This document shows, piece by piece, positions 422 to 63,927 of a DNA stretch of 64,000 nucleotides. Below the pieces are notes generated by a model. The model had not been told where the DNA came from. It was given only the letters and a program-made list of their open reading frames with translations, and did not search any database. Source of the DNA: Natronorubrum halalkaliphilum (GTDB lineage Archaea; Halobacteriota; Halobacteria; Halobacteriales; Natrialbaceae); NCBI RefSeq assembly GCF_009834785.1, contig NZ_WUYX01000030.1, forward strand, positions 1 to 64,000, read 5' to 3'. The stretch's first letter is position 1. Each line of letters opens with the position of its first letter. The position numbers and the translations under genes are program-made.

Positions 422-1393
422 ATGACAGACACCACCATCAGAACCTACACGAACGAAACGGAGGACGAAGAAACGACCGAGCGGTCGGGTGAGCAAGAGC
501 ACTGCCCGGAGTGTGGCGGCCGGCTCGTCTCCGACGACGAACACGCCGAGACGGTGTGTAGCGACTGCGGCCTCGTCGTCGAGGAAGACGAGATCGACCG
601 CGGCCCCGAATGGCGGGCGTTCGACTCCGCCGAGAAGGACAAGAAGTCCCGCGTCGGCGCCCCGACGACGAACATGATGCACGACCAGGGGCTCTCGACC
701 AACATCGGCTGGCAGGACAAGGACGCCTACGGCCGCGCGCTCTCGAGTCGCCAGCGCCAGAAGATGCAGCGGCTTCGCACGTGGAACGAGCGCTTCCGCA
801 CCCGCGACTCGAAAGAGCGCAACCTCAAGCAGGCCCTCGGCGAGATCGACCGCATGGCCAGCGCGCTCGGTCTCCCGGAGAACGTCCGCGAGACCGCCAG
901 CGTGATCTACCGCCGCGCACTCGAGGAGGATCTCCTTCCGGGGCGGTCGATCGAGGGCGTCGCAACGGCGTCGCTGTACGCCGCCGCTCGGCAGGCCGGC
1001 ACGCCGCGCAGCCTCGACGAGATCTCGGCCGTCAGCCGCGTCGAAAAGATGGAGCTGACCCGCACGTACCGCTACGTCATCCGAGAACTCGGTCTCGAGG
1101 TCAAGCCCGCTGACCCCGAACACTACGTCCCGCGGTTCGTCAGCGATCTCGACCTCTCGGACGAGACCGAACGGATGGCCCGCGAACTGCTCGAATCGGC
1201 CCGTCAGGAGGGCGTCCACAGCGGCAAGTCGCCGGTCGGTCTCGCCGCCGCAGCAGTGTACGCGGCCGCGCTCCTGACCAACGAGAAAGTCACCCAGAAC
1301 GACGTCAGCGAAGTTGCGAGCATTTCCGAGGTTACGATCCGAAACCGGTACAAGGAACTGCTCGAGGCCTCCGATACGGCTGCGCCCGCGTAA
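422..1393 (+). CDS. tfb: Transcription initiation factor IIB (TFB)
   Basis: This is the archaeal general transcription factor that bridges TBP bound at the TATA box and RNA polymerase. The 323-residue protein has the full family layout. An N-terminal zinc ribbon carries Cys28, Cys31, Cys46 and Cys49. A B-finger/linker follows (GPEWRAF and the SRVGAPTT region), and then two cyclin-type repeats, the first near 125-215 and the second near 220-315, ending in the VTIRNRYKELLE recognition helix. Length and domain order are normal. Haloarchaea usually encode several TFBs, so the paralogue cannot be named. The start at 422 follows a strong BRE/TATA at 318-332. A one-cyclin relative lies at 32317. Confidence 0.96.
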   Translation: MTDTTIRTYTNETEDEETTERSGEQEHCPECGGRLVSDDEHAETVCSDCGLVVEEDEIDRGPEWRAFDSAEKDKKSRVGAPTTNMMHDQGLSTNIGWQDKDAYGRALSSRQRQKMQRLRTWNERFRTRDSKERNLKQALGEIDRMASALGLPENVRETASVIYRRALEEDLLPGRSIEGVATASLYAAARQAGTPRSLDEISAVSRVEKMELTRTYRYVIRELGLEVKPADPEHYVPRFVSDLDLSDETERMARELLESARQEGVHSGKSPVGLAAAAVYAAALLTNEKVTQNDVSEVASISEVTIRNRYKELLEASDTAAPA

Positions 1394-31385: not shown

Positions 31386-31523
31386 TGATCATACAAGCTG
31401 TTCCCGCGCGAATAAGCGTTGTGGACCGTCTGACGCGCGTCTGCCGCGAGGTGTTGTATTCGGGCGGCTTTCTCCCGTTCGATGTCGGTACCCCGCGGTT
31501 CTTTCGACGTCGTTCGCGGAGAA

Positions 31524-31708
31524 TGCGCGGAACCGAATTCGAACAACCCGAAGATGTGCTCGCTCCCGTCGGTCGCTGTGCGCGTCGTCTCTCGTTCGAA
31601 TCGGTCGACGATCGCTGTCGCTCGCGGGTTTACTCGCGACAGCAATACGCGGGACTGGACTCGAACCTGAGGAAACCTCATTTCGTTTGGTTTCCAGGGC
31701 TCGAATCC
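31524..31708 (-). repeat. Two T-arm-mimic hairpin units downstream of tRNA-Leu
   Basis: Segments copying the 3' end of the adjacent tRNA-Leu occur in direct orientation at 31648-31667 (18 of 20 nt identical to 31744-31763) and 31524-31544 (19 of 21 nt identical to 31742-31762). Each is paired with an inverted T-loop copy nearer the tRNA: 31698-31708 and 31594-31604. The first pair forms a hairpin (31657-31708) with a nearly 20-bp stem; the second spans 31533-31604. No further cloverleaf parts are present, so these are not tRNA genes. Confidence 0.75.
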
Positions 31709-31741
31709 GGCCCTGCTCCTTCGATCACGTCGTTCGCTCAG

Positions 31742-31826
31742 TGCGCGGGACCGGATTCGAACCGGCGGACCCCTACGGGACAGCGTCCTAAGCGCTGCGC
31801 CGTTGGCCTGGCTTGGCTACCCGCGC
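31742..31826 (-). tRNA. tRNA-Leu (anticodon UAG)
   Basis: Read on the minus strand, an 85-nt cloverleaf is complete. The acceptor GCGCGGG pairs with CCCGCGC, with discriminator A. The anticodon stem is CAGCG/CGCUG around the loop CUUAGGA (anticodon UAG). There is a long class II variable arm (UCCCGUAGGGGU), and the T arm has the loop UUCGAAU. Long arm, A73 and anticodon agree on leucine. CCA is not encoded. Downstream lie two T-arm-mimic hairpins. Confidence 0.95.
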
Positions 31827-58438: not shown

Positions 58439-58523
58439 GCCGAGATAGCCTAGCCCGGCCAAGGCGGTAGATTCGAAATCTACTGTCCCCACGGACTCGG
58501 GAGTTCAAATCTCCCTCTCGGCG
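58439..58523 (+). tRNA. tRNA-Ser (anticodon CGA)
   Basis: An 85-nt cloverleaf. The acceptor GCCGAGA pairs with UCUCGGC, with discriminator G73. The anticodon stem GUAGA/UCUAC surrounds the loop UUCGAAA (anticodon CGA). The variable arm is long, as in class II tRNAs, and the T arm is GGGAG-UUCAAAU-CUCCC. G73 and the long arm fit serine. CCA is not encoded; a T-run follows the 3' end. Downstream lie hairpins containing a copy of its own 3' end. Confidence 0.95.
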
Positions 58524-58529
58524 TTTTTC

Positions 58530-58674
58530 CACGAACCACATCGCCGAGCACCGCGTGGCGTGTGCTCGGAGTTCGTGAGCGGAGAACGCGGAACGGTGAT
58601 TTGAACGAGACCGAGGTTCTGTGCCGCAGGCGCAGGTTCTCGGGCGTTATTCAAATCTCCCTCTCGGCGTTTTT
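58530..58674 (+). repeat. Hairpins and T-arm mimic downstream of tRNA-Ser
   Basis: Three parts follow the tRNA. First is a hairpin with CACGAAC (58530-58536)/GTTCGTG (58571-58577) and an inner CCGAGCAC/GTGCTCGG. Second is an inverted T-loop copy, GATTTGAAC (58598-58606). Third is a direct copy of the tRNA 3' end: 58650-58674 equals 58504-58528 over 25 nt, including the T-run. GATTTGAA and TTCAAATC pair across 58598-58657. Between 58675 and 58799 only a small CACAGC-TTC-GCTGTG hairpin (58724-58738) is seen. Confidence 0.75.
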
Positions 58675-62291: not shown

Positions 62292-63860
62292 GTCGTCCGC
62301 CGGCGCCAGCGGCTGCTCGTCGGACGCGAGCAACCGATCGAGCGCGTCGACCATCGCCTCGACGCTGGCGCGCGTAATGTCGGCTTCGCTGCGGGCGACG
62401 GTGACCGAGCGGTCGTTTCGAACCATCGTTACCTCGACGGTGACGACGGCGTCGGTGCCGCCGGTCACGGCGTCGACGTGATAGGACTCGAGTTCCGCAT
62501 CCGCCATCGAGCCCAGGGCTTCACGCACCGCTGAGACGGCGGCGTCGACGGGGCCGGAGCCGGTCCCGCTCGCGACCCGTTCCTCGCCGCCGACGTCGAG
62601 TCGGATACTCGCGGTCGGAACGGCACCGCCGCTCGTGGCCGTTAGGTCGAGCAGTTCGACCGTACGTTCGCGGTCGTCGCCGGTGACGTCCTCGGCGATT
62701 GCCAGCAGGTCGGCGTCCGTGACCCGACGGCCGCGGTCGCCGAGTTCGGTGACGCGATTTGCGACCGTTGCGACCTCGTCGTCGGTCGCCTCGACGTCGT
62801 GTTCCTCGAGCGTCGCCTTGACGCCCGCCCGTCCTGTGTGTTTGCCGAGTGCGAGGCGGCGTTCGCGACCGACCGTCTCGGGCGCGTACGGTTCGTACAT
62901 CTTGTCGTCCTTGAGCGTCCCGTCGGTGTGGATGCCGCTCTCGTGGGTGAAGGCGTTCTCGCCGATAACGGCCTTGTTCGGCGGCAGTTGGACGCCAGTC
63001 GCTCGAGAGACGATCTGGGACAGATCGTACAGTTCAGTGAGTTCGAGCGTATCGACGTCGTAGACGTGGGCGAGCGCGATCGCGACTTCCTCGAGGGCCA
63101 CGTTCCCGGCGCGTTCGCCGAGGCCGTTGACGGTGCAGTGAACCAGGTCCGCGCCGGCGGAGACGGCCGAGAGCGCGTTCGCGACGCCCAGTCCGAGATC
63201 GTCGTGGGTGTGGGCGCTGACCGGCCCGAGTTCGGCGAGCCGGGACACCGCTTCAGCGGTGCGCTCGGGCCCGGTATGGCCGACGGTGTCGGCGAAACAG
63301 ACCCGGTCGGCACCGGCATCGAGGGCGGTCCCCATGAGGGCCTCGAGATAGTCGAGATCGGCCCGGGAGCCGTCCTCGCCGATGACTTCGATCCAGAGGT
63401 CGTGATCGGCGGCGTACTCGACGAGTTCGGCGGTTTTTTCGAGATTATCCTCGCGAGAGGTACCGACCTTGCCCTCGACGTGTCGATCGCTCGAGGGGAC
63501 CACGAGGTGGATGCCGTCGACGTCACAGTCGAGTGCGAGGTCGATATCGGTTTGCATCCCGCGACAGAAACTGGTGACGCGGGCGTCGAGATCGAGGTCG
63601 GTAACGCGGGAGATTGCCTGGCGTTCACCCGCGCCGGTACAGGCGCTTCCCGCCTCGATGGTGGAGACGCCTGCTCGCTCTAACGCGCGAGCGATTTCGA
63701 CTTTCTCGTCGGGTGACAGCGAGACACCCGGTGCTTGCTCGCCGTCGCGAAGCGTCGTATCGAGAAGGCGGACTGTACGGTCGGATTGAATCGTCTGCTC
63801 GGCGGAGTGAGTTACAGGCAAGAGTGATGAACTGCGATTAGTTTGGTCGCGGAATTTCAC
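62289..63860 (-). CDS. cimA: (R)-citramalate synthase or 2-isopropylmalate synthase (LeuA/CimA family)
   Basis: It condenses acetyl-CoA with pyruvate or 2-oxoisovalerate, the entry step to isoleucine or leucine. The 523-residue protein has the DRE-TIM barrel opening VRLLDTTLRDGEQAPGVSL, SAHTHDDLGLGVANA (metal-binding HxH), and NGLGERAGNVALEE. The C-terminal regulatory domain, about 390-520, has ASIRLDVGGEERVASGTGSG. CimA and LeuA cannot be separated with certainty by eye. The GTG at 63860 is the only good start, with an N-terminal extension of about 28 residues. A short upstream ORF overlaps it. Confidence 0.85.
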   Translation of the reverse strand: MKFRDQTNRSSSLLPVTHSAEQTIQSDRTVRLLDTTLRDGEQAPGVSLSPDEKVEIARALERAGVSTIEAGSACTGAGERQAISRVTDLDLDARVTSFCRGMQTDIDLALDCDVDGIHLVVPSSDRHVEGKVGTSREDNLEKTAELVEYAADHDLWIEVIGEDGSRADLDYLEALMGTALDAGADRVCFADTVGHTGPERTAEAVSRLAELGPVSAHTHDDLGLGVANALSAVSAGADLVHCTVNGLGERAGNVALEEVAIALAHVYDVDTLELTELYDLSQIVSRATGVQLPPNKAVIGENAFTHESGIHTDGTLKDDKMYEPYAPETVGRERRLALGKHTGRAGVKATLEEHDVEATDDEVATVANRVTELGDRGRRVTDADLLAIAEDVTGDDRERTVELLDLTATSGGAVPTASIRLDVGGEERVASGTGSGPVDAAVSAVREALGSMADAELESYHVDAVTGGTDAVVTVEVTMVRNDRSVTVARSEADITRASVEAMVDALDRLLASDEQPLAPADD

Positions 63861-63927
63861 GCCCAGCCGGGTTGCCCCGACTTCCTCTATCCTCGGACTC
63901 CGGCGTTGAGAAGGAATCTCGTGCCAT
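63838..63927 (-). CDS. Upstream ORF (29 aa) overlapping the citramalate synthase start
   Basis: The ORF reads MARDSFSTPESEDRGSRGNP-AGREIPRPN. It starts at 63927 and ends at 63838, overlapping the synthase GTG (63860) by 23 nt in another frame. On the minus strand a TATA-like GTTAAGT lies about 30 nt before its ATG, so a leaderless transcript would begin at this ORF. It lacks Leu and has only one Ile, so it is not a classical attenuator peptide; control by re-initiation or ribosome stalling is possible. Confidence 0.5.
   Translation of the reverse strand: MARDSFSTPESEDRGSRGNPAGREIPRPN

Follow-up and report, generated by a model that had tools for sequence, protein, structure and literature searches.

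The window, i.e., the whole stretch of 64,000 nucleotides of Natronorubrum halalkaliphilum DNA that was analysed, contains two tRNA genes, tRNA-Leu(UAG) on the minus strand and tRNA-Ser(CGA) on the plus strand. Downstream of tRNA-Leu(UAG) lie two consecutive units of the same build, each consisting of a hairpin (module A), an inverted copy of part of the T arm (T'), a second hairpin (B core) and a direct copy of the tRNA 3' end. Read in the direction of the tRNA gene, the features are:

31742-31826, minus strand: tRNA-Leu(UAG), mature part, nt 1-73 (ARAGORN, Rfam RF00005 and sequence)
31709-31741, minus strand: unit 1 module A, a hairpin with GAGCGAACGACGTGATCGAAGGAGC that begins one base past nt 73 (sequence)
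31698-31708, minus strand: unit 1 T', an inverted copy of the T loop and the 3' T stem, GGATTCGAGCC
31668-31697, minus strand: unit 1 B core, a CTGGAAACC...GGTTTCCTCA hairpin (sequence)
31646-31667, minus strand: unit 1 direct copy of tRNA nt 52-73, 19/22 positions identical
31605-31645, minus strand: unit 2 module A, a GCTGTCGCGAGTAAACCCGCGAGCGACAGC hairpin with a tandem G.A cap (sequence and fold)
31594-31604, minus strand: unit 2 T', inverted copy, CCGATTCGAAC
31546-31593, minus strand: unit 2 B core of the GCGCACAGCG...GCGAGCAC type
31524-31545, minus strand: unit 2 direct copy of tRNA nt 52-73, 19/22 positions identical
31485-31523, minus strand: probable remnant of a third, decayed module A (TTCTCCGCGAAC...), by comparison with module A of loci L003, L008 and L013

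Unit 1 spans 31741-31646 and unit 2 spans 31645-31524 on the minus strand. A preliminary description had reported inverted and direct copies of the tRNA 3' part behind tRNA-Leu; all four were found at their minus-strand positions, coordinates and counts being correct. It had overlooked the remnant of the third module A as well as a complete unit directly adjoining the other tRNA gene of the window, tRNA-Ser(CGA), at 58524-58669 on the plus strand:

58439-58523, plus strand: tRNA-Ser(CGA) (ARAGORN, Rfam RF00005)
58524-58597, plus strand: module A
58598-58608, plus strand: T'
58609-58647, plus strand: B core of the ACCGAGGTTCTG...CAGGTTCTCGG type
58648-58669, plus strand: direct copy of tRNA-Ser nt 52-73, 20/22 positions identical

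The B core of this unit, of the GAGGTTCTG...CAGGTTCTC type, recurs behind Val and Thr tRNAs of related genomes. At tRNA-Leu(UAG), the type of module A in unit 1 recurs at orthologous loci, and its B core type is common to loci L002, L003, L006 and L011. In addition, the window contains a match to the Rfam leuA-Halobacteria leader RNA at 63849-63901 on the minus strand (71 bits), which is unrelated to the tRNA units.

Within 350 nt downstream of tRNA-Leu, the last 22 nt of this tRNA recur with up to 19/22 matches, whereas 200 shuffles of the flank gave no more than 15, and the 221-nt trailer folded as RNA scored z = -3.5 against dinucleotide shuffles. As the T arm is near-palindromic by itself, a lone short inverted copy is weak evidence; in a swap test on 283 units, the specificity of T' for its own tRNA exceeded what the universal T loop would give. 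A search for the locus yielded matches in all 61 genomes searched. At the 30 tRNA-Leu(UAG) loci that were read, usually 1-4 units were present downstream and matched the tRNA of the same species, and the copies followed the host tRNA-Leu(UAG) even in species in which TTCAAAT or CCCACGCA replaces the common sequence.

The same layout, hairpin A, T', hairpin core B and a direct copy of tRNA nt 53-73, was found over many units. With the direct copy of nt 53-73 and T' opposite to it, an array alternates T-A-T'-B-T-A-T'-B-T. Among the first units behind 224 tRNAs, identity to the tRNA rose from 0.30 at nt 51 to 0.73 at 52 and 0.93 at 53, which places the 5' edge of the direct copy at nt 53; its 3' edge lies at nt 73, where identity of 0.88 falls to 0.48 at the next position. 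Over nt 62-73, the direct copy was 0.86-0.99 identical to its own tRNA versus 0.28-0.62 to swapped tRNAs. T' is the complement of tRNA nt 54-65 (224 tRNAs) and follows the own tRNA also at the non-universal positions 57, 59 and 62-65, with own versus swapped identities of 0.92 versus 0.51 at 57, 0.95 versus 0.82 at 59, 0.78 versus 0.49 at 62, 0.67 versus 0.33 at 63, 0.51 versus 0.23 at 64 and 0.46 versus 0.28 at 65. The units had a median length of 121 nt and ranged from about 96 to 160 nt at loci partly chosen by unit presence; they carry no genes, the inserted part measuring about 75-140 nt. No terminal inverted repeats belonging to the cassette were found, the sole inverted repeat being that of the host tRNA's T arm. 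An extra single base in the T loop of the direct copy (TTCACAATCC, TTCGTAATCC and TTACGAATCC) was seen at the initiator tRNA-Met loci L471 and L475 and at L126, L305, L343, L442 and L467. As only 8 of 161 copies carry such a base, direct inactivation of the copy is uncommon.

These edges bear on the explanation that the copies are chance palindromes or the remains of tandem tRNA genes. The near-palindromic T arm would lend itself to the former, but chance palindromes were ruled out by the shuffles and tRNA swaps, and for tandem genes identity ends at nt 52-53 with no trace of the tRNA 5' part, leaving this explanation a negligible probability. The preliminary description had considered that its reading would be refuted if the flanks of other tRNA genes matched the T arm equally well, or if the copies were left over from tandem tRNA genes. 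Such matches at other flanks do exist, but they are copies of the respective own tRNA in the same anatomy and thus generalise the finding, and the proposed descent from tandem tRNA genes fails as identity is at background by position 51.

In the N. halalkaliphilum genome, an array walk revealed the unit anatomy behind 17 of 42 tRNA genes, each with copies of its own tRNA. For 16 of the 42, the own 22-nt end recurred downstream with at least 18/22 matches, the 17th, Gly(GCC), reaching 16/22; the scores were bimodal, and most tRNAs lacking units were at shuffle level (maximum 16). No convincing unit match was obtained away from tRNAs in this genome when two contig-edge cases were set aside. These two apparent orphans on contig C45 were rejected, as they resemble parts of the tRNA-Tyr and tRNA-Thr arrays that were broken off at the contig ends. 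Unit arrays were repeatedly encountered at contig ends or assembly gaps, e.g., C45:1-308 and C45:137599 (tRNA-Tyr and tRNA-Thr) and locus L005, with a doubled tRNA-Leu and an N, so that such repeats probably hamper assembly. A genome from a different family gave the same picture, with 16 of its 42 tRNAs followed by a copy of their own end (at least 17/22).

A diagnostic pattern, GATTTGAA-N28-58-GTTCAAATC, was present in 103 of 116 Halobacteria genomes and 43 of 46 genera, whereas the reversed pattern serving as control gave 0. Among 119 genomes from the phylum's other classes, about 3 contained it, each as a single case, and the one such match whose sequence was examined resembles part of a tRNA gene. 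The pattern is missing from four complete genomes of a single genus (g57; G083, G084, G092 and G136) while other genera of the family have many, and this genus should be helpful for tracing the genes responsible. A search with one B core over the GTDB genomes returned, among the 119 stretches listed, haloarchaea only, bar one contig (L287, PXTT01000074.1) binned as Bacteroidetes. Its unit and flank are identical to those of the haloarchaeal contig L380, and going by this identity it is probably mis-binned. Of the listed B-core matches, 111 of 121 shared the strand of a tRNA gene and began no more than 700 nt beyond it, in many named genera and behind tRNAs for Val, Leu, Gly, Ser, Arg, His, Phe, Tyr, Met, Lys, Glu, Gln, Pro and Thr. 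In viral contigs, no haloarchaeal unit was found beside a tRNA among the matches listed. One haloarchaeal sequence, L390, also contained a strong match to the L4-Archaeoglobi ribosomal protein leader (747-846, minus strand, 74.5 bits).

Between three species of one genus, units differ at about half of the tRNA genes, and within one genus tRNA-Ile is followed by 0, 1 or 2 units. Eleven tRNA genes were free of units in all three species, i.e., two Ala, Gln(CUG), Glu(CUC), Gly(CCC), Leu(CAA), Leu(GAG), Pro(GGG), Ser(GCU), Thr(CGU) and Thr(GGU), with the call for Thr(CGU) affected by a seeming assembly gap at this locus in the N. halalkaliphilum genome. At initiator tRNA-Met in G005, G006, G007 and G009, CCCA runs straight into the homologous flank, whereas in G003 and G004 a single unit is located between the same CCCA and the same flank. 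These two units differ in both A and B, and both end in nt 53-73 of that tRNA, strongly indicating that units insert, as differing units occupy one base that is empty in four relatives. Independent insertion is the simplest history suggested by this alignment; both of these recent insertions carry the extra T-loop base in the direct copy. Similarly, tRNA-Pro(UGG) is empty in the N. halalkaliphilum genome (G000) and in G009, and one unit precedes the same flank in G005; the site is also empty in G001 and G008, where flanks are more diverged. At both Leu(UAG) and Val(CAC), two sister species differ by one additional unit proximal to the tRNA. Within arrays at loci partly selected for having units, the proximal copy matched the tRNA better in 41 cases and worse in 2 (Wilcoxon 2.6e-7). 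By comparison, new units adjoin the tRNA and distal ones decay; this polarity is not specific to insertion at the tRNA, as the edge units of any tandem array decay. Taken together, we consider it very probable that insertion, not loss, is the usual origin of units, although precise empty sites can also arise by loss through recombination between the direct copies.

The preliminary proposal of a mobile element that targets the T arm gains support from the empty sites, the duplication of nt 53-73 and the exchange of B between tRNA loci. Modules were compared at a threshold of at least 85% identity. Between genomes, 34 pairs of B cores were found at different tRNAs versus 12 at the same tRNA, whereas 15 pairs of A modules were at the same tRNA and 3 at different ones, two of the latter involving the two Lys tRNAs. 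Since comparisons between different tRNAs are far more numerous, the contrast of B with A is the informative part, and as the sequences are related the pair counts overstate independent events. Within genomes, 22 pairs of B cores occurred behind different tRNAs, including a few pairs from a single array or from isoacceptors, along with 6 pairs of A modules. The results suggest that B travels, while A is mostly resident at its locus.

Units might also have arisen and spread by tandem duplication, gene conversion and template switching without any dedicated activity, by slippage at the T-arm palindrome and recombination between arrays. A similar duplication origin may be supposed for the rtT repeats of E. 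coli tyrT, and template switching at quasi-palindromes may perfect T'. The copies are short and palindromic, as this explanation would have it, and A and B modules have been re-paired between sister species at tRNA-Gly(GCC). However, two unlike units are found at one formerly empty base behind initiator tRNA-Met, where they bring foreign A and B modules bounded by that tRNA's own nt 53-73, and the edges are sharp across 224 tRNAs. We therefore regard an origin by duplication and template switching as unlikely. Another source could be integrative elements of viruses or plasmids whose tyrosine recombinase crosses over in the T loop and which have left att copies behind as scars. A T-loop crossover would indeed leave the segment from the T loop to nt 73. 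Haloarchaeal proviruses are known to leave tRNA 3' repeats (PMC3119063). Yet the insert is always about 75-140 nt and never kilobases with genes, its contents are a small set of recurring RNA hairpins, inverted copies are not att products, and the matches listed for viral contigs include no units beside tRNAs. Such scars are therefore a highly improbable origin of the units.

The hairpins appear to be under selection as RNA. In an alignment of 98 units with one common B core, two inner pairs of the B stem showed full compensation, with C-G, G-C and U-A at columns 18-49 and C-G, A-U and G-C at columns 19-48, and departures from pairing in the inner stem were, on the tRNA strand, G.U in 52 cases versus A.C in 4. 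For a subset of 49 sequences, the covariation score was 0.359 compared to 0.152 in shuffled alignments (0 of 500 shuffles as high), with 122 versus 47 two-sided cells, and it dropped to 0.04-0.13 when the structure was slid. Units folded with a median z of -3.4 against shuffles (sample of 120), and among 264 units the sense strand folded better in 177 and the antisense strand in 85. In free hairpins, the direct count of G.T versus A.C showed a weak asymmetry only (49 versus 36). At the level of these alignments, the compensatory changes and the preference for G-U over A-C mismatches show that selection acts on the transcribed strand.

Among 178 units whose best hairpin has a 2x2 mismatch, 102 had tandem GA/GA on the sense strand, and beyond it follow 2 bp and then a GNA triloop or a longer loop. 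Caps built from tandem GA/GA, two base pairs and a GNA triloop (GCGAAGC, ACGAAGT) were observed in both A and B hairpins, e.g., at 31605-31645 on the minus strand of the window. Loops of the GCGAAGC and ACGAAGT type are unusually stable as single-stranded DNA mini-hairpins. In principle, hairpins formed by the sense strand as DNA might also give rise to part of the signs of selection described above. Several known motifs were considered and rejected. For kink-turns, the 2 bp beyond GA/GA (AC/GU or GC/GC) appear to covary, so that a symmetric tandem G.A loop fits the caps better. By inspection, the pocket is too small for an H/ACA guide and there is no ACA box. The internal loop of the B hairpin is a two-sided 3x4 loop rather than the two opposed 3-nt bulges of the BHB motif of the splicing endonuclease, and for this enzyme no trailer substrates are reported in the passages of PMC7714728 consulted.

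With regard to function, the preliminary description had suggested a structured RNA co-transcribed with the tRNA. This holds for the structure, borne out by RNA-type covariation on the tRNA strand, while co-transcription is presumed from the arrangement. The decoy for tRNA 3' processing or CCA-adding enzymes that it also raised may be a further role, which the results neither favour nor disfavour. The main rival to insertion of a mobile cassette is accordingly a trailer RNA that functions for the host, its hairpins serving tRNA biogenesis or the released trailer acting as a small RNA; variants include termination, protection of the 3' end or an on/off switch in which T' pairs with the own T arm or its copy. 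Selection on the transcribed strand, the class-wide retention of units and a T' sequence able to pair with either T copy would all be in line with such a role, as would trailer-derived RNAs in Haloferax volcanii, where 3' trailers were the source of most tRNA fragments in one library (Heyer et al., cited in PMC3544259). On the other hand, presence and absence change rapidly within one genus, as for tRNA-Ile with 0, 1 or 2 units, about ten tRNA genes are unit-free in all three species compared, and several complete genomes lack the pattern, rendering host function rather unlikely.

Sequence comparison establishes the strict linkage to tRNA genes, the duplication of nt 53-73, the gain of units at sites formerly empty, an RNA-type constraint on the strand of the tRNA and the exchange of B. 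For the existence of the family, its tRNA linkage, the duplication boundaries and selection at the RNA level taken jointly, our confidence is very high. As an overall explanation, we lean towards short, non-autonomous cassettes specific to Halobacteria that would insert at tRNA 3' ends, duplicate nt 53-73, be carried in the transcript and be masked by T'. Insertion would spare the tRNA and copy its nt 53-73 to the far side of the cassette, and repeated insertion next to the tRNA would lead to arrays of 1-4 units with decaying distal members. This would call for a putative dedicated integration activity that recognises the tRNA 3' end, which we slightly favour. Since the cassette follows nt 73 immediately and has the orientation of the tRNA gene, the two are presumably transcribed together, and tRNase Z would release the cassette. 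Hairpin A would hold T' away from the tRNA, and T' would pair with the T-loop copy further downstream, the two strands closing hairpin B at its base. By this, T' would mask the duplicated T-arm strand, which then would not compete with the tRNA's own in folding or processing, and the insertion would be tolerable. Masking would also explain why T' matches the private nucleotides of each tRNA. Based on base pairing, the odds that self-masking is the reason for the existence of T' appear evenly balanced. More tentatively, and with somewhat less than even confidence, the cassettes may represent a new parasite or commensal which combines dedicated, putative tRNA-3'-end integration with copying of 21 nt, rides on the transcript and masks itself to spare tRNA function.

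If so, the cassettes, which are carried by roughly 40-60% of the tRNA loci in three related species compared, would add an unrecognised class-wide layer to the tRNA genes of a model archaeal group, and point to a putative integration activity specific for the tRNA 3' end. They would also provide a natural test of how pre-tRNAs with a duplicated T arm escape misfolding, and they are a candidate source of the reported haloarchaeal tRNA-trailer RNAs. In practical terms, they are a warning that repeats can break assemblies near tRNA genes, as at the Tyr and Thr loci of the N. halalkaliphilum genome.

A published description of such tRNA-tail hairpin cassettes was not found in open-access text. The closest arrangement is that of the rtT repeats of the E. 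coli tyrT (tRNA-Tyr) operon (Rfam RtT), which are tandem, co-transcribed with the tRNA and each contain a copy of the tRNA 3' end. They consist of 178-bp near-identical repeats in one operon of enteric bacteria, and to our knowledge lack an inverted T-arm partner, are not exchanged between different tRNA genes and have no class-wide range. The haloarchaeal units likewise occur in tandem behind the tRNA and contain its 3' end, but do have the inverted partner, the exchange between tRNAs and the class-wide range, and Rfam gave no match to them, the RtT family included. SMR-A of Haloquadratum walsbyi is a non-coding element of about 110 bp that inserts into palindromic targets (PATE/IS605) by an unexplained mobilisation; it has terminal inverted repeats, does not duplicate its target and is more than 95% uniform within a type (PMC3119063). 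The tRNA units are similar in size and also target a palindrome, but lack terminal inverted repeats of their own; they create a 21-nt duplication, form a diverse set and are confined to positions behind tRNA genes. With MITEs and SMRs in general, they share being too short to code, a high copy number and insertion polymorphism with empty sites, but not element-specific terminal inverted repeats or near-identical copies dispersed over the genome. As in tRNA-targeted integrative elements, the tRNA is preserved and the direct repeat (nt 53-73) reaches its 3' end. Reported elements of that kind, however, range from about 9 to 121 kb and have an integrase gene when intact (PMC9897764, PMC8371274), whereas the units are gene-free hairpin cassettes in tandem arrays with an inverted copy, carrying neither kilobase cargo nor integrase. 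Tandem or decayed tRNA genes would extend further 5', while here identity is at background from nt 51 upstream. Like casposon or Cas1 insertions at tRNA-Leu 3' ends, the units sit at the very end of the tRNA and are accompanied by a target duplication. The duplication made by casposase, however, measures 14-15 bp, and in the Methanosarcina mazei example just the final 4 bp of it belong to the tRNA (PMC6977970); casposons are kilobases long with terminal inverted repeats. The array-growth observations (polarity of 41 versus 2 and single-unit proximal differences between sister species) recall the acquisition of CRISPR spacers, in which an array is polarised beside a fixed leader, a resemblance in layout only. 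Thus, none of the known families compared from the open-access literature has all of its defining features represented in the units.
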